A stretch of DNA of 38,499 bases from an uncultured Verrucomicrobiota bacterium. GTDB taxonomy: Bacteria > Verrucomicrobiota > Verrucomicrobiia > Palsa-1439. The translations under genes and the position numbers were made by a program. The notes beneath the pieces were generated by a model. The model had not been told where the DNA came from, ran no database searches, and worked only from the letters and a program-made list of their open reading frames with translations. The DNA lies in assembly GCA_903825435.1 (NCBI GenBank), contig CAIKAP010000206.1, positions 1-38,499 of the forward strand. The letters run 5' to 3'. This document shows, piece after piece, positions 8,860 through 38,499 of the stretch (the first letter of the stretch is position 1; every line of letters starts with the position of its first letter).

Positions 8860-9833
8860 ACTTTCCCCTGTACCGTTCACGTCGGTTGCGTCGGACGCCT
8901 GCGTTGCGGGCGCTGGTGCGCGAGACCGAACTCAGCACGCGCCACCTCGTCCTGCCGCTGTTTGTGTGTGAGGGTCGACGGTTGCGCCGCCCCATCGGCA
9001 CCATGCCTGGCCAATTCCAACTGTCCGTGGACGAACTATTGAAGGAGGCGAGCGAGGCGTTTGCGCTCGGTGTGCCGGCGGTGATCCTGTTTGGCATTCC
9101 CGACAAGAAAGATGAACGCGCGTCGAGCTCCTGCGGCATTGTCCCGAAGGCGGTGCGCGTGTTGAAGAAGGAATTGCCGGAGTTGATCGTGGTGGCCGAT
9201 GTCTGTCTGTGTGAGTACATGAGCCACGGCCATTGCGGCATTGTTCACGGCGGACGCGTGGACAACGATGCGACGCTGCCGTTGCTGGCCAAGGCGGCGT
9301 TGGCGTACGCAGAGGCAGGCGCGGATATTGTGGCGCCGAGCGATATGATGGACGGGCGCGTGGCGGCGATTCGCGCTGCGTTGGACAAGGCCGGGTTGGT
9401 GGAGATGCCGATCATGAGTTATGCGGCGAAGTTCGCGTCGGCGTTTTACGGTCCGTTTCGCGAGGCTGCGGAGAGTGCGCCGCGGTTTGGTGACCGTCGG
9501 AGTTACCAGATGGACGCTGCCAATGGAGAGGAGGCGCTGCGCGAGGTGGCATTGGATATTGCGGAAGGCGCGGACATCGTGATGGTGAAGCCTGCATTAG
9601 CGTACTTGGACTTGGTGCAACAGGTAAAAGAGAAGTTCGGCTACCCGGTCGCCGTTTATAGCGTGAGCGGCGAGTATTCGATGATCAAAGCGGCGGCGGC
9701 CAAGGGCTGGGTGAATGAGCAGTCTGTCGTCTTGGAGATGATGACGGCATTCCGTCGGGCAGGAGCGGACATCATCTTAACGTACTGGGCGAAGGATCTG
9801 GCGAGCTGGCTGGCTAGCCCATCTTCAGTTTAG
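8856..9833 (+). CDS. hemB: Delta-aminolevulinic acid dehydratase (porphobilinogen synthase)
   Basis: The 325-residue protein is full length for HemB. It condenses two 5-aminolevulinate molecules to porphobilinogen in heme synthesis. Both active-site lysines are present: Lys192 in MSYAAKFASAFYGPF and Lys245 in DIVMVKPALAYLD. The zinc-binding cysteine triad is intact (Cys117, Cys119, Cys127 in DVCLCEYMSHGHCG), so this is the Zn-dependent type. The start is ATG 8856, in an ATGA overlap with the upstream 39-codon ORF. Its 3' end overlaps the convergent FHA gene by 20 bp. No other heme genes are nearby. Confidence 0.95.
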   Translation: MNFPLYRSRRLRRTPALRALVRETELSTRHLVLPLFVCEGRRLRRPIGTMPGQFQLSVDELLKEASEAFALGVPAVILFGIPDKKDERASSSCGIVPKAVRVLKKELPELIVVADVCLCEYMSHGHCGIVHGGRVDNDATLPLLAKAALAYAEAGADIVAPSDMMDGRVAAIRAALDKAGLVEMPIMSYAAKFASAFYGPFREAAESAPRFGDRRSYQMDAANGEEALREVALDIAEGADIVMVKPALAYLDLVQQVKEKFGYPVAVYSVSGEYSMIKAAAAKGWVNEQSVVLEMMTAFRRAGADIILTYWAKDLASWLASPSSV

Positions 9834-30098: not shown

Positions 30099-31244
30099 CT
30101 AGCGGACGATCTCCGCGCCGTTAGATGGATGACAGACGTAGAGACTGGGTTTGAGTTTGGTCGCCTTCTCGTAATCCGCAGCAACGGTCTTGGTGAAGTT
30201 CTCCGCTACGTTCTCTTCAACCAGCGCCACGGCGCAACCGCCGAACCCCGCACCCGTCATCCGCGCACCGATGCAACCTTTGCCGTGGCGGGCGCACTCG
30301 ACAATCACATTCAGCGCGTCGTTGGTCACCTCGAAATCGTTCTTCAAGCTCTCATGGCTGGCGTCCATCAATTTGCCGAGCGTCTTCGCATCGCCCGCGC
30401 GCATCGCCACGGCGGCTTGCGCGGTGCGTTCGTCCTCGGTCACAACGTGACGGGCACGTTTGCTCGTCGTCTCGTCGAGTTGTGACGCCTTCGCGTTGAA
30501 CTGCGCCACGCTCACGTCGCGCAGTGCCTTCACGCCGAAGAATTTCGCCGCCGCCTCGCACTGGGCGCGGCGCTCGTTGTACGCCGAGCCAACCAGCCCG
30601 CGACGGGTCGCCGTGTCGAGAATGACCACGACAGTCTTGGGGGGGAGGGGAACAAGCTGGTGTGCCAGTGACCGGCAATCAATCAACAACGCATGTCCTT
30701 TTTTCCCAGCAGCCGAGATCATCTGGTCCATGATACCGCAGTTGACGCCGACCCACTTATTCTCCGCCTTCTGTCCGAGCAACGCCATCTTCGCCGGGTC
30801 CCATGTGAAACCGGACGTGACCTCGAACGCCCGCGCGACTGCCATCTCGAACGACGCCGATGAGGACAATCCCGCGCCGAGCGGCACGTCGCAACCGGTG
30901 ACGCCGTCCCAGCCGTTGAGCTTGAGGCCCGCCTCCTGCAACGCCCACGCCGTGCCTTTAACGTACTCGGACCAGTGGTGCGGGTTCTTCGTCATCTTGG
31001 CGAGATCGAACTCGGCAGATTCATTGTGGCTTTGCGAAAAAATCGTCACGCGGCCGTCCTTACGCGGGCGCAACGCGATCCACGACGCCCGGTCAATCGC
31101 CATCGGCAACACGAACCCGTCGTTGTAGTCGGTGTGCTCCCCGATGAGGTTCACGCGGCCTGGCGCGCGCACGACGGCGGACGGCGCACTGCCGAATCGT
31201 TGCTGAAACGTCTCGATGACCAGTTGCTGTAGCGATGTGCTCAT
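30099..31244 (-). CDS. galK: Galactokinase
   Basis: The 381-residue protein has the three GHMP-kinase signatures of galactokinase: the galactose-binding motif GRVNLIGEHTDYNDGFVLP near residue 30, the ATP loop PLGAGLSSSASFEMAVARA, and the C-terminal GARMTGAGFGGCAVALV. The catalytic Asp is in VNCGIMDQMIS. It phosphorylates D-galactose at C1 in the Leloir pathway. The other Leloir genes (galT, galE) are not in the window. It is last in an operon, 10 bp after the HAD gene, following rhamnulokinase. This suggests use of galactose- and rhamnose-containing plant polymers such as rhamnogalacturonan. Confidence 0.94.
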   Translation of the reverse strand: MSTSLQQLVIETFQQRFGSAPSAVVRAPGRVNLIGEHTDYNDGFVLPMAIDRASWIALRPRKDGRVTIFSQSHNESAEFDLAKMTKNPHHWSEYVKGTAWALQEAGLKLNGWDGVTGCDVPLGAGLSSSASFEMAVARAFEVTSGFTWDPAKMALLGQKAENKWVGVNCGIMDQMISAAGKKGHALLIDCRSLAHQLVPLPPKTVVVILDTATRRGLVGSAYNERRAQCEAAAKFFGVKALRDVSVAQFNAKASQLDETTSKRARHVVTEDERTAQAAVAMRAGDAKTLGKLMDASHESLKNDFEVTNDALNVIVECARHGKGCIGARMTGAGFGGCAVALVEENVAENFTKTVAADYEKATKLKPSLYVCHPSNGAEIVR

Positions 31245-31254
31245 GGGGATTCTT

Positions 31255-31908
31255 CTACACGCCCAACAGGAGGCTCGTCAACTCTGCGATATCGCCGATA
31301 AGATGGTCCGGTTTGCTTGCCGCGATGGCTTCACCGAAGAAACCGTAAGTCACGCCCACCGTCACCATCCCGGCCGCGCGGCCCGCGAGGATGTCCGATT
31401 CCGTGTCGCCGACATACACCGCTTCCGCTGGCGACAGTTCCATTAGTTTCAGCGCGAGCAAGAGCGTGTCGGGATGCGGTTTCGTGCGCGGCGTGTCCTC
31501 CGCCGACAAGGTGACTTCCAACAGTCCTCCGAATCCCGCGTTCTCCAGCGTGCCGAGCGAGCTAACCTTCGAGCGAGCCGTCACCGCGCCACAACGCACA
31601 CCGGCGGCGCGAAGTGTTCGCAGCGTGTTGATGGCGTGTGGGTACGGGTGGATCGCCATCGTTTGCACGCGTTCCTTTTGCCAAGCCCGATGTTCCGCGC
31701 ACAGCACCGATGCGTCGAGGCCGGGCGCCAACACGCGATAGCAATCGGCTAACGCGGGGCCGAGCACGATGCCGATTTCAGTGCGCAGTGGCGGTGTGCG
31801 TCCGTGGAGGCGCAGGACGTGTTCGATGGCGCCGATGACGTAGTCGGTGGAGTCCAGCAACGTCCCGTCCACGTCGAACAACGCCGCGGCGAATCGTGGC
31901 GCGCTCAC
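31255..31908 (-). CDS. HAD-superfamily phosphatase (phosphoglycolate phosphatase-like)
   Basis: GTG 31908 is chosen because it gives a GTGA overlap with the rhamnulokinase stop; the longer frame would reach 45 bp into that gene. The 217-residue protein has the HAD motifs: LFDVDGTLLDS (nucleophile and acid Asp), GAVTARSK (motif II position, Thr), TKPHPDTL (Lys) and VGDTESDILAGRAAG (motif IV). The helical cap between motifs I and II is the class I type of Gph/PpaX. It hydrolyses a small phosphate ester, perhaps a sugar phosphate or phosphoglycolate. It lies between two sugar kinases, so a role in removing toxic sugar phosphates is plausible. Confidence 0.82.
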   Translation of the reverse strand: MSAPRFAAALFDVDGTLLDSTDYVIGAIEHVLRLHGRTPPLRTEIGIVLGPALADCYRVLAPGLDASVLCAEHRAWQKERVQTMAIHPYPHAINTLRTLRAAGVRCGAVTARSKVSSLGTLENAGFGGLLEVTLSAEDTPRTKPHPDTLLLALKLMELSPAEAVYVGDTESDILAGRAAGMVTVGVTYGFFGEAIAASKPDHLIGDIAELTSLLLGV

Positions 31909-33383
31909 TTCACCAATGTCAGCTTCTGGAACCGCTCGTAGGCAGCCTGCCACGTCGCGTTGTCCTGCGGTTCGTAGGTCTGGATCGGGAACGAGTCGCG
32001 TACGACGGCGCGCAACTCATCGAGCGACTTCAGATGACGCAACGCAAGCGCCTGAATCAGGATGTTGCCGATGGCCGTTGCTTCGACCGGTCCGGTCAAC
32101 ACCGTCAACCCGGTGGCGTTGGCGGCGAACTGGTTCAGCAGCGCGTTTTTGGTGCCGCCGCCGACGATGTGCAGGCGCGTGATCGGCTGGCCGGTGATGG
32201 CGCTGGCGTCGGCAAGCGTCTTGCGATAGACGAGCGCGAGACTCTCAAGTGCGCAACGCACAATCTCGCCATGCGTCGCCGGCACGGGCTGGCCCGTTTC
32301 GCGGCAGTAGGCTGCGACTTTTGACGGCATGTCGTCGGGCTTGAGGAAGCGGGCGGCTCTGGGGTTGATAAGGCACTTTAGGGGCTGCACTTCGGCAGCG
32401 ATGCGGGTGAGCTGGTCGTAATTGTACTCAGTGCCTTCCTTCGCCCAAGCGCGACGGCATTCCTGCACGACCCAGAGGCCGACGATGTTTTTCAGAAACC
32501 GGATCGTGTGGCCGTAGCCGACTTCGTTGGTCCAGTTGTATTCGAGGCTTTTCTCGTTGATGATCGGTTCCTTCGCCTCGATGCCGAGTAACGACCACGT
32601 GCCGCTACTGAGATACGCCCAGCCGCTACCTTGCGCAGGCACGGCGGCCACGGCGGCGCCGGTGTCGTGCGAACAAGTAGCGATGACCTTGATGCCTTTG
32701 AGTCCCGTCTCCTTGGCGACGCTGGGGAGCAGGGAGCCGAGGACGGTGCCGGACTTCACGATCTTCGGAAACAGTTTCGCGGGGATTCCGAGTTTTTTCT
32801 GGAGCCTGGCGGACCACTTGCGTGTTTTAGGATTGTACAGCTGCGTGGTACTGGCGAAGGATTGTTCGACGACTTCTTTTCCGCTGAACAAGTAGTTGAA
32901 GTAGTCGCCGATGGTCAGAAAACGGTCGGCGGTTTTGAGAATCCACGGGCGGAACTTCACGTCGGCGTGAAGTTGGTATAACGTGTTGAAGGTCATAAAC
33001 TGGATGCCGGTCTCGGTAAAAATCTCTTTGCGTTTCACGACGGCGAACGCACGCTTGTAGCCGTCGTCGGTGCGCGGGTCGCGGTAATGATAGGGTAGGG
33101 TGAGCATCGGTTCGTTGCCGCGCAGCCAGACGTAGTCAACACCCCACGAATCCGTGCTCAGGCTGTTCGGCTTGACGCCGCTCTGTGCGACCTTGCGCAG
33201 GCCTGTCTTCAGTTCGTCGTAGATGCGGAGCGCATCCCAGCGCAGCGTGCCGCTGACGTTGATGCCGCCGTTCGGGAACCGGTGGACTTCTTCAAGGGTA
33301 AGTTTGCCGTTGGCGAGCGTACCGAGCATGACGCGCCCGCTCTCGGCGCCAAGATCACAGGCGATGTAGTGGTAAGTGCTCAT
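31905..33383 (-). CDS. rhaB: Rhamnulokinase (FGGY family)
   Basis: The 492-residue protein is full length for RhaB. It starts CDLGAESGRVMLGTL (phosphate loop of the first actin-like domain), then RFPNGGINVSGTLRWD, which is characteristic of rhamnulokinases, and DSWGVDYVWL with the catalytic-region Asp. The second domain has SHDTGAAVAAVPAQGSGWAY, SSGTWSLLGIE and HIVGGGTKNALLNQ. It phosphorylates L-rhamnulose. RhaA and RhaD are absent from the window. It is the first gene of the rhaB-HAD-galK operon. Its start is about 130 bp from the IS91-type transposase start. Confidence 0.9.
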   Translation of the reverse strand: MSTYHYIACDLGAESGRVMLGTLANGKLTLEEVHRFPNGGINVSGTLRWDALRIYDELKTGLRKVAQSGVKPNSLSTDSWGVDYVWLRGNEPMLTLPYHYRDPRTDDGYKRAFAVVKRKEIFTETGIQFMTFNTLYQLHADVKFRPWILKTADRFLTIGDYFNYLFSGKEVVEQSFASTTQLYNPKTRKWSARLQKKLGIPAKLFPKIVKSGTVLGSLLPSVAKETGLKGIKVIATCSHDTGAAVAAVPAQGSGWAYLSSGTWSLLGIEAKEPIINEKSLEYNWTNEVGYGHTIRFLKNIVGLWVVQECRRAWAKEGTEYNYDQLTRIAAEVQPLKCLINPRAARFLKPDDMPSKVAAYCRETGQPVPATHGEIVRCALESLALVYRKTLADASAITGQPITRLHIVGGGTKNALLNQFAANATGLTVLTGPVEATAIGNILIQALALRHLKSLDELRAVVRDSFPIQTYEPQDNATWQAAYERFQKLTLVK

Positions 33384-33517
33384 GGCCGCAAATCATCCGG
33401 TTTTCCGGGGAAAAGACAAGTGCGAAGAATGCGGGGGCGCACTGTGGCTGAGCGGTTCCAAACAGTCCGCATGGGGGCGCAACTCAGCATTTGTGCGATG
33501 TTTCCGCGAGGCGCCAG

Positions 33518-34939
33518 ATGCTTGCCACCAACCCGCTCACCGTACGCTGTCCCACGCCCATTTATGCCACGCGCACCGCCGCTGTCCAATACCAGCCACG
33601 GCGACCGCGGTCTTCGCCTTTGTGGCGCTGCTTGCATGAGAATTTCGCGGTATTCCTAACCGAATACGAGCAACGGCACCGGCCACGCTCTGGGGAACTG
33701 CGGCCTATCATCCGCGAAGTGCTGGAGAAATTCCTCGACTGCGGCGACCTCCATCAAGGCTTCGCCCGTGTTCGCTGTCCCGACTGCCGCTTGGAATACC
33801 TGTTGGCCTTCAGTTGCAAGACGCGCGGGTTTTGCCCAAGCTGCCAACAACGGCGCACCGTCCAAACCGCCCAAGTTTTGGTCGAGGACGTTTTCGCCAC
33901 GGTGCCCCATTGCCACTACGTGCTCAGCCTGCCGGTGGCCGTGCGCTCCTTCTTCCAACGCGACCGGTCCCTGCTCACCGACCTGTGCCGCTTGGCCAAC
34001 GATAGTCTCCGCGAATGGATGCAAACCGCGCTGAACCGGACCAACGGCGCACCGGGCGTCGTGCTGACGTTGCACACCTTTGGCGACTACCTCAATTTCC
34101 ATCCCCACATCCATGCCATCGCCACCGACGGACTGTTCGACCGGCACGGCACCTTCATCGCATTGCCCGACGCCAAACTGCGTGACCTGCGCGACCTGTT
34201 TCGGGCAAAAATCTTTCGGCTGCTGGTCCAGCGGAAACTGCTTTCGCCCGCGCTGGTGCACAAATTCATGCAGTGGAAACACAGCGGGTTCAATCTCTTC
34301 CGCGGCGATCCCGTGCCCGGCACCCATCGCGCGGAACTGGAGAAAATGGCCCAGTACATTCTCCGCCATTCCTTCTCTGTCGAAAAGATGACCTATTTCC
34401 CCCAGACCGGCCGGGTCATTTATCATTCCCGCTTGAACCCCACGACCCGCCGCAACTTCGAAGTCTTCACCGCCACCGATTTCCTCGCCGCCATCACCCA
34501 ACACATCCCCGAAAAAGGCGCGCAAACCGTCAAATACTATGGCTACTACAGCAACAAAGCCCGCGGCCAGCGTGCCCGGCAAGAAGACACTGTAGGGCAA
34601 GCGCCCCGCTTGCCGCCTGCCGAATCCGTGGACGATACGTGGCAACCGGAGCGGTCGCCCTACAAACGCCGCAAAATCCCATCCCGAACTTGGCGCGAAC
34701 TGATCAAGAAAGCATGGGATGTTGATCCAATGCTCTGCCCGAAATGCGGCGGCCAAATGCGATTGATCTCGCTGATTGAGGATGACTCCACCATTGAGAA
34801 GATTCTCCGCCATCTCGACCTCTGGGAAGGCTTGGCCCGGCCGACCGAACGCGCCCCGCCATTGCGGCTCGAATCAGAATACATCCGGGAACCGTTTTAC
34901 GACGACCTCCCGTTCGGCCCGGATGCCTACGCCGAGTAG
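33518..34939 (+). CDS. IS91-family rolling-circle transposase
   Basis: The start is set at ATG 33518 (a TTG at 33491 is possible), giving 473 residues. The N-terminal zinc finger is CPDCRLEYLLAFSCK with CPSCQQRR. The HUH metal motif is FHPHIHAIATDG. The tyrosine regions are MAQYILRHSFSVEKM and KYYGYYSNKARG, as in Y2 transposases. A second zinc pair (CPKCGGQM) follows, and the C-terminus ends DDLPFGPDAYAE. IS91 elements move by single-strand rolling circle between oriIS and terIS and can carry neighbouring DNA by one-ended transposition. Element ends could not be defined. A related transposase tail occurs at 38384. The gene looks intact. Confidence 0.92.
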   Translation: MLATNPLTVRCPTPIYATRTAAVQYQPRRPRSSPLWRCLHENFAVFLTEYEQRHRPRSGELRPIIREVLEKFLDCGDLHQGFARVRCPDCRLEYLLAFSCKTRGFCPSCQQRRTVQTAQVLVEDVFATVPHCHYVLSLPVAVRSFFQRDRSLLTDLCRLANDSLREWMQTALNRTNGAPGVVLTLHTFGDYLNFHPHIHAIATDGLFDRHGTFIALPDAKLRDLRDLFRAKIFRLLVQRKLLSPALVHKFMQWKHSGFNLFRGDPVPGTHRAELEKMAQYILRHSFSVEKMTYFPQTGRVIYHSRLNPTTRRNFEVFTATDFLAAITQHIPEKGAQTVKYYGYYSNKARGQRARQEDTVGQAPRLPPAESVDDTWQPERSPYKRRKIPSRTWRELIKKAWDVDPMLCPKCGGQMRLISLIEDDSTIEKILRHLDLWEGLARPTERAPPLRLESEYIREPFYDDLPFGPDAYAE

Positions 34940-35091
34940 AACAATCTCTGTCAACCCGCCGCTCACCGGTGATGGGAGAACCACGCAGTTTTACGGCTGG
35001 ACGGCTTGACATTGAACCCGGTTTCCGGCACGATGCGCGCCGAAAGGAATGGAAATGCGATCAGAGGAACATTTCGCAAGTGTCGCCGATG
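34940..35091 (+). other. IS91 downstream flank with possible coding remnant
   Basis: Downstream of the transposase the plus strand reads NPPLTGDGRTTQFYGWTA and, after an apparent one-base loss near 35007, LNPVSGTMRAERNGNAIRGT. This looks like beta-rich protein sequence interrupted by a frameshift, but it is short and no family is recognised. A 10-bp perfect palindrome (TCACCGGTGA, 34963-34972) lies here and might belong to the element end. Confidence 0.25.
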
Positions 35092-35151
35092 CTTGGCTGG
35101 TCAGAAGAGGTTTCGGCTGGTCAGAAGAGGTTTCGGCTGGTCAGAAGAGGT
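35092..35151 (+). repeat. Three tandem copies of a 20-bp unit
   Basis: The unit TTCGGCTGGTCAGAAGAGGT occurs twice exactly (35112-35131, 35132-35151), and a copy with two changes precedes it (35092-35111). It sits between the IS91 transposase and the first 58-bp repeat. No coding sense is evident. Confidence 0.85.
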
Positions 35152-35165
35152 TCAAGGCTCCCCCC

Positions 35166-35223
35166 TTAACCCCCCTGCTGTCGCCGATGCGAAGCCCCTC
35201 TGAAAAGCAATTTCCTATCAGTA
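35166..35223 (+). repeat. 58-bp repeat, copy 1
   Basis: Identical over 58 bp to the copies at 35947-36004 and 38302-38359. It comprises a GC-rich 37-nt part (TTAACCCCCCTGCTG...CCTCTG) and a 21-nt arm beginning AAAAGCAATTTCC. Left of it is GC-rich DNA downstream of the IS91 transposase; right of it the base composition drops abruptly. This copy lacks the left inverted arm. Confidence 0.95.
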
Positions 35224-35285
35224 GTTTGTTTTCGTTTGATCATTACATCTTGGAAGATAAACTGATTAGGAGTTTTGAATAACCT

Positions 35286-35855
35286 ATGAGTAAATATACT
35301 CAGCCAATAATTGATTTAGTTTATGCTATTGCTAAAGGTAGTAAAAAAGTGAGGAATATTCTGACTCCTTTTGTTGGGTTAATCTTCTTTGCAATAATTG
35401 TCTTGTTTATCTGGTTAGGAATAATTACAGATAGAATACTCAATTTGCCAAGAATTATTCCTGCACCATTTGGTATGATTTTCTCTATTTTTTTTATCAT
35501 AGTAGGCTTAGTGCTTATGCTATGGTCAGTTATTTGTTTTTTGAAAGTGAAAGGGACTCCTGTTCCTATAAATCCACCTCCAGTTTTAGTGACCTATGGA
35601 TTTTATAAGTATGTTCGAAATCCAATGCTTACAGGTGTATTCACAGTTATGCTTGGTATTGGATTTTTTAATAACTCTTGCTCCTTCATATTTTTTTATC
35701 TACCTGTGTATATTTTCCTGAATTACATTGAGTTGAAATTGATAGAAGAACCAGAGTTGGAAAAACGCTTAGGAAAAGCCTATGTTGAGTATAAGAAAAT
35801 TACTCCTATGTTTTTCCCATTTTTAAAAGCTGGAAGAACTAAGGAGCTTAAATAA
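35286..35855 (+). CDS. ICMT-like membrane methyltransferase, AT-rich
   Basis: The 189-residue protein starts at ATG 35286, with TAGGAG at 35269-35274. It has about four hydrophobic segments (for example LTPFVGLIFFAIIVLFIWLG and FGMIFSIFFIIVGLVLMLWS) and the ICMT/phospholipid methyltransferase signature: PPPVLVTYGFYKYVRNPMLT, then LIEEPELEKRLGKAYVEYKK near the end. It should methylate a lipid or other hydrophobic substrate with S-adenosylmethionine. Codon use is strongly AT-biased, unlike every other gene here except the cupin fragment beside it, which points to a different source genome. It is related at family level, not copy level, to the gene at 14204. Confidence 0.85.
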   Translation: MSKYTQPIIDLVYAIAKGSKKVRNILTPFVGLIFFAIIVLFIWLGIITDRILNLPRIIPAPFGMIFSIFFIIVGLVLMLWSVICFLKVKGTPVPINPPPVLVTYGFYKYVRNPMLTGVFTVMLGIGFFNNSCSFIFFYLPVYIFLNYIELKLIEEPELEKRLGKAYVEYKKITPMFFPFLKAGRTKELK

Positions 35856-35933
35856 ATGACCCCAGAAACAATAATAAAACAACTCAATCTTTTACCACAT
35901 CCTGAAGGTGGCTATTATAGAGAGACTTACTGA
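35856..35933 (+). pseudogene. DUF985 cupin gene, cut off after 25 codons
   Basis: ATG 35856 directly follows the methyltransferase stop. The product MTPETIIKQLNLLPHPEGGY plus YRETY is the N-terminus of the DUF985 cupin family, whose members begin with IIxxLxLxPHPEGGYYRETY. It then stops at TGA 35931 within the left arm of repeat copy 2, so the conserved remainder (about 120 residues) is missing. The join lies at 35927-35930, exactly where the inverted repeat begins. Confidence 0.8.
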
Positions 35934-36005
35934 TAGGAAATTGCTTTTAACCCCCCTGCTGTCGCCGATGCGAAGCCCCTCTGAAAAGCAATTTCCTATC
36001 AGTAA
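35927..36005 (+). repeat. 79-bp palindromic element, complete copy (copy 2)
   Basis: Perfect 22-bp inverted repeat (35927-35948 against 35984-36005; TTACTGATAGGAAATTGC and complement) around a 35-nt centre (35949-35983). Its right 58 bp are shared with copies 1 and 3. Left flank: AT-rich, truncated cupin gene. Right flank: GC-rich, the C-terminal end of an unrelated gene. A single strand would fold into a very stable hairpin. Confidence 0.95.
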
Positions 36006-36097
36006 CGAAAACCGGCACGTCTCGATTCATTGTGGTTGTGACCGACACAAATAATTTGCGGGCGACGAAGTCGCTGACATTAACAATCGGAAACTAA
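36005..36097 (+). pseudogene. C-terminal fragment of an Ig-like-domain surface protein
   Basis: From the edge of the palindromic repeat the frame reads TKTGTSRFIVVVTDTNNLRA and then TKSLTLTIGN-TAA. This is the last part of a He_PIG/cadherin-like Ig domain (tGtxxFxVxVTDxxxxxAtksltLtI), found in large secreted or surface proteins. The rest of the gene is not upstream: the other side of the repeat is AT-rich DNA with a different gene. The gene was cut at the repeat. Confidence 0.7.
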
Positions 36098-36121
36098 AGA
36101 ACCCAACCCGGAGAAAGCATC

Positions 36122-36475
36122 ATGAAAAAAGTCGTCATCGTCATCGCGCTGGCACTGGCCGTAGTAACGCTGGGCACTCTCGCACAGGAGACCAACAACC
36201 CGCCGCCGGCCGGCGGACCGGGCCGCGGACCGGGCGGATTTCATATTTTGCCGCCGCACGCCCAAGCGCAATTGAACCTGACCGCCGACCAGCAGAAGCA
36301 AGTGGCGGACCTGGAAGCCGAAGTGAAGGCGAAGATCGAGAAGATCCTGACGCCCGAGCAACTGCAGCAATTAAAGCAGCTGCGGCCGCCGCAGCGCCAA
36401 GGCGGAAAAGGTGGCAGCAAACCCGATGTTGGCAGCGACAATCAGCCCAATCAACAACGGCCGCCCGGCGAATAA
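36122..36475 (+). CDS. Small exported LTxxQ (Spy/CpxP-like) protein
   Basis: ATG 36122 follows CCGGAG. The 117-residue protein has a signal peptide (MKKVVIVIALALAVVTLGTL, then AQE). A Gly/Pro-rich stretch (PPPAGGPGRGPGGF) leads to two LTxxQ motifs: LNLTADQQKQVADLEAEV and ILTPEQLQQLKQL. The tail is rich in Gly, Gln, Pro and Asn and probably disordered. Spy and CpxP use such helices as periplasmic chaperone or stress-sensing surfaces. Environmental Verrucomicrobiota and Planctomycetes have many such small exported proteins. A chaperone role is only a family-level guess. Confidence 0.7.
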   Translation: MKKVVIVIALALAVVTLGTLAQETNNPPPAGGPGRGPGGFHILPPHAQAQLNLTADQQKQVADLEAEVKAKIEKILTPEQLQQLKQLRPPQRQGGKGGSKPDVGSDNQPNQQRPPGE

Positions 36476-36578
36476 TTCCCGGTCGTGACTACCAGGCCTT
36501 GGGTACGGTAGTATTGAACACCGCCGCTGTTGATCGGCGAGCGACGGGGGTTGCAGGACCAACTGAAAGGAATAACCC

Positions 36579-37829
36579 ATGAAACGCAAACTTTTGATTG
36601 CTGCGCTGCTGTTTGGTTGGTCAGCGCTCGGCTTGCCGGCCCAGGAGCCGCGTCCTCCCAAGCGAGACGACCACGGCCGGCAGTATTCCATCGAACAGGC
36701 GACGTCGGACCGGGCACAACTGCATACGATCGCGTTCGACGGTTTGGCCTTCCTGACCGGCGACTTCGGCCTCGACACCTTCCTACCGCCCGGCAAAGTC
36801 TCCGACTATTTCGGCTTCCAATACATGCGCGATATCGACGCGAAGGAGGGCGGACATAACACGTCATTCCTGACGCAAATCGCCAACAACATGCTGGCCA
36901 TCTTGACCGAGGCCCAGAAGGCACAACTCATCACCTTGGCCAGGGCGCAGGAAAACGACATCCAGCGGTTTGCTGAAAAACGGTTCCCGTTGATCAAGGC
37001 GTTCCGGCGGAATTTGGAAGGCGCGCTCCCCGCTGGTAGTCAGGGCTTGGACAAGAACGCGGTAATGAAATATTCCGTTGATTTATATGTGCTGGATGGC
37101 GTGCTGTCGTTCCAGCGCGCACAGGTCATGGGCAGCATCATCCGCAGCCTGACTGCCCAGCAAAAAGCGGCCCTGGCCAAGCTGAAGTTTGGCGATTCCC
37201 GGACCTGGCCGGATGGGCCGGAGCAGCTCGACAAGCAGAGCCTGTCCCACGCGGTCGATGTCGCCGTGATGACCTACGCCAGCGAGATGTTCGCGTGGTA
37301 TGCCGGGTCTCTCATGGCCGACACCTATTTTTGCCCCGAACGGCATGGGATGTACTTTGGCGGGTTTGGCATGAAGACCGCGCCGGCCATGGGCAAACAG
37401 GATTACTCGATCAGCACGTCGCTGACCGGCGACAGTGGCGAGGCTTTCCTGGCTGCGCTGACTGCCTCGCAGCGGAAATTCATCACGGATGTGATCGATC
37501 TCCAACGCCAGGACCTCACCGAGATCGTCAAGACCCGGCGCGCGATCGCCACCGAATTGCGGCGTTTCCAACAAGGCGAATCCGCCGACAAGAGCAAAGT
37601 GCTGGCGCTGTCCAAACGCTACGGCGAATTGGACGGTGAGCTGGCTTACTTTTACGCCACGGCCTTCGCGAAGGTCGGCCAGTCGCTGACCGCGCCCCAA
37701 AAGGAAAAACTCGCCAAGTTGCGCCCGATCAACCCGGCCGATCCCCGCGGTCCGTTTCTGTACTCTGACCCAATCGACATGCCACCGATTGCGAACACGG
37801 ATTTCTTGTTTGGTGTGGCCGGCAAATGA
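36579..37829 (+). CDS. Exported protein with four LTxxQ motifs, unknown function
   Basis: ATG 36579 follows GAAAGGA. The 416-residue protein has a signal peptide (residues 1-21, LLIAALLFGWSALGLPA). It is largely helical and contains four LTxxQ motifs: LTEAQ 109-113, LTAQQ 191-195, LTASQ 294-298 and LTAPQ 370-374, each followed by a basic residue and a hydrophobic helix. That spacing (82, 103, 76) suggests a repeated helical unit related to the Spy-like protein upstream. A single cysteine lies in YFCPERHGMYFGGFGM. No enzymatic motif is recognised. Its stop overlaps the phosphoesterase start (ATGA), so these two are one operon. Confidence 0.65.
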   Translation: MKRKLLIAALLFGWSALGLPAQEPRPPKRDDHGRQYSIEQATSDRAQLHTIAFDGLAFLTGDFGLDTFLPPGKVSDYFGFQYMRDIDAKEGGHNTSFLTQIANNMLAILTEAQKAQLITLARAQENDIQRFAEKRFPLIKAFRRNLEGALPAGSQGLDKNAVMKYSVDLYVLDGVLSFQRAQVMGSIIRSLTAQQKAALAKLKFGDSRTWPDGPEQLDKQSLSHAVDVAVMTYASEMFAWYAGSLMADTYFCPERHGMYFGGFGMKTAPAMGKQDYSISTSLTGDSGEAFLAALTASQRKFITDVIDLQRQDLTEIVKTRRAIATELRRFQQGESADKSKVLALSKRYGELDGELAYFYATAFAKVGQSLTAPQKEKLAKLRPINPADPRGPFLYSDPIDMPPIANTDFLFGVAGK

Positions 37830-38305
37830 AGCGACTGCTGGCACTGGCACTGTTGTGTTCCACCGCTGTTGCGCAGGAACACGGGGCGGCCGGACCGGCG
37901 GCGAACCTGTCCATAATTCTCGGACGGCCAACTGACCGATCGATTGCGCTGAGCGTTTTGTCGGCGACGGAGATTGACGCGCGCGTCGAGTACGGCACGA
38001 AGCCGGGAACGTACTCTGAGAAAACCGCTTCCCGCACCGCGAAGCCCGGTGTGCCGGTGGAGTTTGAACTGGGCGCGTTGCAGGCCAACACGCGGTATCA
38101 TTACCGGCTGCTCACGCTGGCGCCGGGCGCGCCGGGTTACCGGCCGGAGCCGGCAGGCACGTTCCAGACGCAACGGCCGCCCGGCAGCACTTTCACCTTT
38201 GCGCTGCAAGGCGACTCGCATCCCGAACGCGCCGGCAAGATGTTCGAGTCGCAGCTCTACGAGGTGACAATGCGCAATGTGGCGCAAGCGGCGCCCGACT
38301 TTTAA
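37826..38305 (+). pseudogene. Exported metallophosphoesterase, truncated by the 58-bp repeat
   Basis: ATG 37826 overlaps the preceding stop. The frame has a signal peptide (MKRLLALALLCSTAVAQ), an N-terminal Fn3-like domain (residues about 30-115; VEYGTKPGTYSEKTASRT, LGALQANTRYHYRLLTL) and the start of a calcineurin-like phosphoesterase domain, TFTFALQGDSHPER, whose GDSH supplies the first metal ligands. After MRNVAQAAPDF it meets TAA at 38303, made by repeat copy 3; a normal member would continue for another 200-300 residues with the other metal ligands. The layout is that of PhoD or purple acid phosphatase-like proteins. The remaining part cannot be active. Confidence 0.8.
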
Positions 38306-38359
38306 CCCCCCTGCTGTCGCCGATGCGAAGCCCCTCTGAAAAGCAATTTCCTATCAGTA
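38302..38359 (+). repeat. 58-bp repeat, copy 3
   Basis: Exact 58-bp match to copies 1 and 2. The truncated phosphoesterase enters from the left, sharing TTTTA with the repeat edge. On the right is a short unrelated stretch that contains TTGATAGG, a partial inverse of the CCTATCAG in the arm, and then the end of an IS91-type transposase gene. Confidence 0.95.
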
Positions 38360-38383
38360 GAACTAGGTATTTTGATAGGGGTC

Positions 38384-38425
38384 GATGACGACTTGCCGTT
38401 CGGTCCCGAGCCGTTCGCCGAATAG
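38384..38425 (+). pseudogene. IS91-family transposase C-terminal remnant
   Basis: The frame DDDLPFGPEPFAE followed by TAG closely matches the DDLPFGPDAYAE C-terminus of the intact transposase at 33518. Nothing upstream of it matches the transposase. It is the tail of a second, diverged IS91-type element, placed just after repeat copy 3. Confidence 0.7.
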
Positions 38426-38499
38426 AAAAGGAGCGCCGCCGTCCCTGGCGGTCCCGGTATCCGGATTGTCGCTTCGGAATGGCTGTCGTGTCTTTTTTG

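Follow-up and report, generated by a model that had tools for sequence, protein, structure and literature searches.

The transposase motif of IS91 contains two tyrosines. Ideas on how IS91 and ISCR elements acquire the genes next to them, among them the resistance genes beside ISCR1, rest on circumstantial evidence, and a paper of 2018 states that transposition had not been shown for any ISCR element (PMC6218425). The oriIS of ISCR1 is located at the end 3' of its gene, with variable captured DNA on that side (PMC6218425). Helraiser, a eukaryotic Helitron, is likewise an HUH rolling-circle transposon and acquires pieces of adjoining genes when its terminal hairpin is bypassed (PMC4778049), with the captured DNA held inside one transposon copy and no array punctuated by end copies. 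Here we analysed a window of 38,499 nucleotides from an uncultured Verrucomicrobiota bacterium (assembly GCA_903825435.1, contig CAIKAP010000206.1, positions 1 to 38,499 of the forward strand), in which an IS91/ISCR-like element is followed by further copies of its own right end. At this conserved chromosomal site, in two species, transposase and end are followed by unrelated stretches of DNA, each flanked by exact copies of the end in the same orientation. This array architecture is well supported, and we consider it likely that the locus is a DNA-capture array anchored on the transposon, whose own right end serves as the capture site. The locus shares with ISCR1 and its relatives an HUH transposase of the same lineage, a probable oriIS end 3' of the gene and variable DNA on that side; however, the papers compared describe a single variable region for ISCR1 and no array of this type, whereas here many segments are separated by copies of the end unit, each with exact borders.

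An earlier note, made from the letters of the window, had reported a 58-bp repeat at 35166, 35947 and 38302. Direct comparison established that the three stretches (35166-35223, 35947-36004 and 38302-38359) are identical, and alignment of 12 copies from the genome of the window (henceforth G000; 242 contigs, the window being C206) trimmed the invariant unit to 56 bp, TAACCCCCCTGCTGTCGCCGATGCGAAGCCCCTCTGAAAAGCAATTTCCTATCAGT, followed 3' by A or T and preceded 5' mostly by T. Beyond its edges the copies otherwise share nothing. Within the window the units occupy 35167..35222 (unit 1, the transposase-proximal copy), 35948..36003 (unit 2) and 38303..38358 (unit 3), all on the + strand. When the search was widened to the whole assembly and to related genomes, as the note had suggested, G000 was found to hold 12 identical 56-bp units on one strand throughout, three at the end of C206 and the other nine on C220 (10.7 kb), and a sister species (G001) was the only other carrier at up to 3 mismatches among the 93 genomes searched. 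These 12 are the G000 matches, at up to 3 mismatches, of a 34-mer from the 3' part of the repeat, eight exact and four with the last base changed. On C220 two units stand head to tail with a period of 56, confirming the unit length, and across four genomes identity was ~1.0 within the unit and ~0.4 beyond both edges. As single-stranded DNA the G000 unit could form two small hairpins (z = -2.9 for one strand and -2.4 for the other), a tendency weaker in G001; the unit matched no RNA family in Rfam. C220 itself stops at L013:10578-10718 because a multi-copy sequence ends there, which recurs at 100% or 99% identity near many G000 contig ends.

The transposase gene (33491..34939, + strand) encodes the zinc and HUH domains by which the IS91 family in the broad sense, including ISCR, is recognised (PF14319, 3.2e-18; PF04986, 3.5e-20, Pfam), scores 169.7 bits against the IS91-family model NF033538 (cut-off 125) and also matches NF052416 (ISCR clade Ia), below that model's cut-off. 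It contains an HPHIH motif and a single tyrosine, in QYILRHSF. The two catalytic tyrosines (YxxxY) of IS91 in the strict sense were not found: twelve homologues have motifs like QYxLR[NH]xF, with N or H where the second tyrosine would stand. The enzyme and its rolling-circle type ends resemble the IS91 family but differ in having one motif tyrosine against two in IS91 (PMC4778049), and the locus differs in having a platform at one chromosomal site in two species and an array of end units. Searches by sequence returned no solved structural homologue, only two poor matches, and the structure model was of low confidence (mean pLDDT, the predicted local distance difference test, 48.9). The limits of the element, placed from its other copies and a mini-copy in G000 and G001, are a start near 33452 (approximate, being the start of homology to other copies) and an end, conserved among copies and 3' of the gene, that coincides with the 3' end of unit 1. 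Because the element copies and the mini-copy stop at this point, the 56-bp unit is, by sequence comparison, the right-hand end of the IS91/ISCR-like element at ~33452-35222 (+ strand), and by its position, as in ISCR1, it is probably the oriIS (PMC6218425). The suspected link to IS91-type transposition has thus proved closer than the earlier note proposed. The note had not recognised the repeat as a known REP (repetitive extragenic palindromic) sequence, attC site or insertion-sequence end. Just before unit 1, the right-end region of the element carries three tandem 20-bp repeats, GGCTGGTCAGAAGAGGTTTC (35095..35154, + strand). The tetranucleotide GAAC or CAAG expected beside an IS91 insertion was seen at two diverged G001 copies, which precede (T)GAAC, and not at the array units. 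The mini-copy (G000 C81:71640-71935; L123:1640-1935) is internally deleted, retains both ends without the transposase, and is a miniature inverted-repeat transposable element (MITE) of this family.

Such a mini-copy, and the fact that the unit is a transposon end with two exact borders, would also fit a second reading, namely that the 56-bp unit is itself a tiny MITE-like element inserted into continuous DNA. The DNA on the two sides of the units is, however, discontinuous. The guanine-plus-cytosine (GC) fraction changes from 0.58 to 0.31 across unit 1 and from 0.33 to 0.58 across unit 2, and the shift in GC and 3-mer composition at units exceeds that at random points in G000, G001, G231 and G243 (p = 0.011 to 5e-05). 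Segment 1 (35223..35947, 725 bp, GC 0.32) contains, by profile search, a complete phospholipid-methyltransferase-like gene (35286-35855) and a Cupin_5 gene (35858-35934) that breaks at unit 2 after 22 of 139 profile positions, this being the AT-rich cupin gene that the note had placed there. Segment 2 (36004..38302, 2299 bp, GC 0.60) starts with the end of an upstream gene and holds two small complete open reading frames (ORFs; 36122-36475 and 36579-37829) and a truncated purple-acid-phosphatase-like gene (37826-38302). The start of segment 3 (38359..38499) is the tail of an IS91-type transposase frame, as the note had read it, ending in DDLPFGPEPFAE before the stop and resembling the C-terminus of the window transposase, YDDLPFGPDAYAE. 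The note's description of the repeats as joins between unrelated DNA is borne out by these GC jumps, the broken cupin gene and the transposase tail. Elsewhere, two genes of the SMP-30 family break at units after 176 and 201 of 246 positions, a ThuA gene at a unit border lacks its first 45 profile positions, and an rve transposase at another is present only as its C-terminal part (a weak match). The DNA to the left of one unit and that to its right match different contigs, and intact homologues in G001 run on past the segment border (for example, contig C22 reads GTCTTGATGCC where the array reads GTCTTAACCCC, and C112 reads TACGACACC where the array reads TACGATTAACC). Insertion of a MITE or REP into continuous DNA is contradicted at the junctions tested, with gene families truncated on one side differing from those on the other, and the units cluster in one orientation; we regard this explanation as very improbable. 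Parts of C22, a contig of the same genome, match one G001 segment at 91-92% identity, the segment having ~1.6 kb extra in the middle relative to C22, and because of these differences a related genome, not its own, is the probable source of the segment.

The sister species shows the same platform with a different array. G001, a Lake Tanganyika Verrucomicrobia metagenome-assembled genome (VHCW01), keeps the order galactokinase, HAD hydrolase, FGGY carbohydrate kinase, transposase and unit at ~80-84% identity (contig C129, L064:1336-7263). The three conserved chromosomal neighbours lie in the window on the - strand at 30099..33383 (30099-31244, 31255-31953 and 31905-33383, respectively, identified by Pfam). 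Past the G001 unit the segments differ from those of G000 and are again divided by units, which are mutually identical across several contigs and differ from the G000 units at four positions. That units are the same within a genome and different between species indicates that each derives by copying from another unit or from the platform, in the manner of CRISPR (clustered regularly interspaced short palindromic repeats) repeats. The same comparison bears on the possibility that unrelated fragments were joined through an adapter or short repeat during library preparation or assembly. The genomes studied are drafts, and the sister genome was assembled with metaSPAdes from 2x150 reads (PMC8245535). 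Against an artefact, a diverged unit stands at the orthologous locus in G001, which also disposes of the adapter or vector sequence that the note had named as grounds for rejecting its observation, and distant genomes carry units of different sequence. Furthermore, overlaps of ~140 bp between contig ends in G000, and a window contig that stops exactly 141 nt after unit 3, point to assembly with k = 141; the junctions would then have been spanned by k-mers longer than the unit, and a 56-bp repeat would not confuse the assembler. We give an artefact almost no credence. The window contig probably stops where it does because what follows unit 3 is also present at other places in the metagenome, there with no unit.

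An anchored recombinase gene followed by species-specific repeats with variable segments between them also recalls the integron, in which case the units would be attC sites and the segments gene cassettes inserted by the tyrosine recombinase IntI. IntI genes above cut-off are indeed present in G000, G001, G166 and G252. However, none scored above cut-off in G190, G231 or G243, all of which have repeats, and no unit or end motif lies near the IntI genes examined in the other four genomes, so that the check for a tyrosine recombinase suggested by the earlier note yielded integrases in some genomes and none linked to units. The 3' border reads CAGT, CATT, CCTT or CAAT followed by variable bases, with no conserved GTTRRRY, and the attC cores RYYYAAC and GTTRRRY were not found at borders read by eye, without an attC covariance model. 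Furthermore, the segments are random, truncated gene pieces rather than cassettes and the units are the end of an IS91-like element, and an integron appears exceedingly unlikely. The genuine integron integrase genes, L190 (G000 C161:1061-1993), L191 (G001 C1:35136-35966), L186 (G166) and L192 (G252), stand without units nearby. CRISPR offers a closer parallel in its identical repeats per genome, its unrelated inserts and a repeat that is apparently duplicated at each addition; it differs in that here the inserts are 0.1-3 kb long, the repeat is a transposon end and the anchor is a transposase gene. We rejected a CRISPR array in the proper sense, as neither cas genes nor short spacers were found: the ORFs scanned in the window and C220 encode metabolic proteins or transposases. 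A PADLOC search for defence genes gave one weak match, to a coiled-coil protein. The locus works like an array builder of the integron or CRISPR kind, while by the tests made it belongs to neither group and its enzyme falls in the broad IS91/ISCR lineage.

Comparable arrangements accompany more distant transposases. Enzymes at 42-57% identity, in five other families, each come with repeated copies of their own 38-78 bp ends, which differ in sequence and share a 3' motif like AAGCAAWTTCCTATCAGT. Units lie 3' of the transposase in G166 (L131, at 4802, 7243 and 9589), in G190 (L182, three units after the transposase end) and in G252 (L132, two exact copies of a 78-bp unit). G243 has a 58-bp unit in near-exact copies on several contigs, and G231 has at least 19 copies of 62-64 bp units on the contigs examined, including a tandem pair with a period of 64. 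Overall, 41 of 43 neighbouring unit pairs have the same orientation, and the segments between units, mostly 0.1-3 kb long, have a median length of 1.9 kb and do not exceed 3.1 kb in 84% of cases. A cognate end repeated with exact borders, in one orientation and between unrelated segments, was found in G000, G001, G243, G190 and G166, with mixed orientation in part of G231. In G190, in G166 and in two unit families of G231, the element has a second end-like motif close by on the left side of the unit (10/13 matches; background frequency 0.006), so that in these genomes the unit sits between two end-like motifs.

We infer the enzymology of capture as follows. The HUH transposase, acting on single-stranded DNA, would make one nick at the 3' border (CAGT^W, resembling an oriIS cut) and a second exactly at, or close to, the 5' border of the unit (^TTAAC). 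DNA from elsewhere, as a rule no longer than ~3 kb, would then be joined in at the unit, and the unit would be copied so that both sides of the new segment carry one, as a CRISPR repeat is duplicated on spacer addition. The segments would be drawn from other genomes without selection for whole genes. Because both borders are exact, the most economical event is one in which DNA enters at a single unit and that unit is duplicated; the second end-like motif in G231, G190 and G166 is suggestive of cutting at two borders, no more. A one-ended process could give the same appearance, in which modules of one segment plus one unit are rolling-circle copied from one 3' edge to the next and reinserted behind other units, so that the array grows mainly by shuffling. 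For IS91 and ISCR elements, mobilisation that is one-ended and takes adjacent DNA along is the accepted idea (PMC6218425, PMC13393415), a cut is expected at the unit's 3' edge, and tandem empty units exist. Such recycling does not, however, account for the first exact joining of a segment at the 5' border of a unit, since a one-ended event leaves one end variable, and no segment was found twice at near-identity within G000 or G001; we consider it unlikely as the main route.

Several observations weigh against capture at the units. The contig with the G231 transposase has units upstream of the gene and does not show the platform order, two of eight neighbouring unit pairs in G231 face opposite ways, and G252 has two units only, 10.5 kb apart. 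The second end-like motif is not present in the G000 or G001 elements. No enzyme activity, circle or pair of empty and filled sites has been seen so far, and recycling of existing modules would look the same. All genomes studied in detail are drafts in which the full length of the array, the order of additions and the far end are not visible. With these points in mind, we put forward tentatively, as a possibility we would not yet back at even odds, that the locus represents a new class of DNA-collecting locus, in which an HUH transposase with a single tyrosine, resident at the locus and belonging to the IS91/ISCR lineage, treats its terminal unit as CRISPR treats its repeat, adding foreign DNA of kilobase size next to it and duplicating the unit at every addition; a conserved chromosomal site would in this way build up an ordered archive of captured DNA in Verrucomicrobia and relatives. 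No earlier description of such arrays was found in the literature searched, a scope that left out most subscription papers and all preprints. The arrays amount to a natural set of replicate capture products from several families, alignable and exact at their borders, and the cut sites are therefore predictable from sequence. If capture does take place, integrons and CRISPR would not be the sole bacterial loci to assemble DNA of outside origin into ordered arrays, and the unit, being specific to each species, would be a ready probe for further arrays in metagenomes.

The middle copy in the window has an additional feature. As the earlier note had stated, it forms a 79-bp perfect inverted repeat (35927..36005) with 22-bp arms at 35927-35948 and 35984-36005 around a 35-nt centre. 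The inverted repeat is built of unit 2 and, joined to its 5' border, an inverted and shortened copy of the unit's 3' end. Chance does not account for the 21-bp arm, which gave 0 matches in 100 shuffles. This form occurs in one of the 12 G000 copies, and the 56-bp unit alone is no palindrome. The note had taken the repeat for a short palindromic mobile element; nothing shows solo hops into continuous DNA and the 79-bp form is rare, and the copies are instead the punctuation of an array, in one orientation, behind a transposase. The palindrome would probably be a fold-back accident of the single-stranded end during a capture event. A plasmid or phage element was also rejected, as plasmids gave no match and phages only chance-level 21-bp matches, and the arm was not found in viral contigs. 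A second palindromic unit, in G243 (L179:12316-12390), has the same build, with a truncated inverted 3' end set against the 5' border of the unit.

Further variants were seen among the distant units. Two G231 units (L168:1356 and L168:184) end ...CCTAT directly into TAAC, the unit's own start, rather than in the usual CCTATCC[TG]T. A second unit family, TTAACGCGCCGCGGC...AAAAAGGAAATTCCTATCAGT, is intermixed with the first in the same genome (L166:6548 and L173:1089). Finally, two units of G166 (L131:7243-7298 and 9589-9657) end in two or three consecutive copies of their own 3' part, AAGCAAATTCCTATCAGT.

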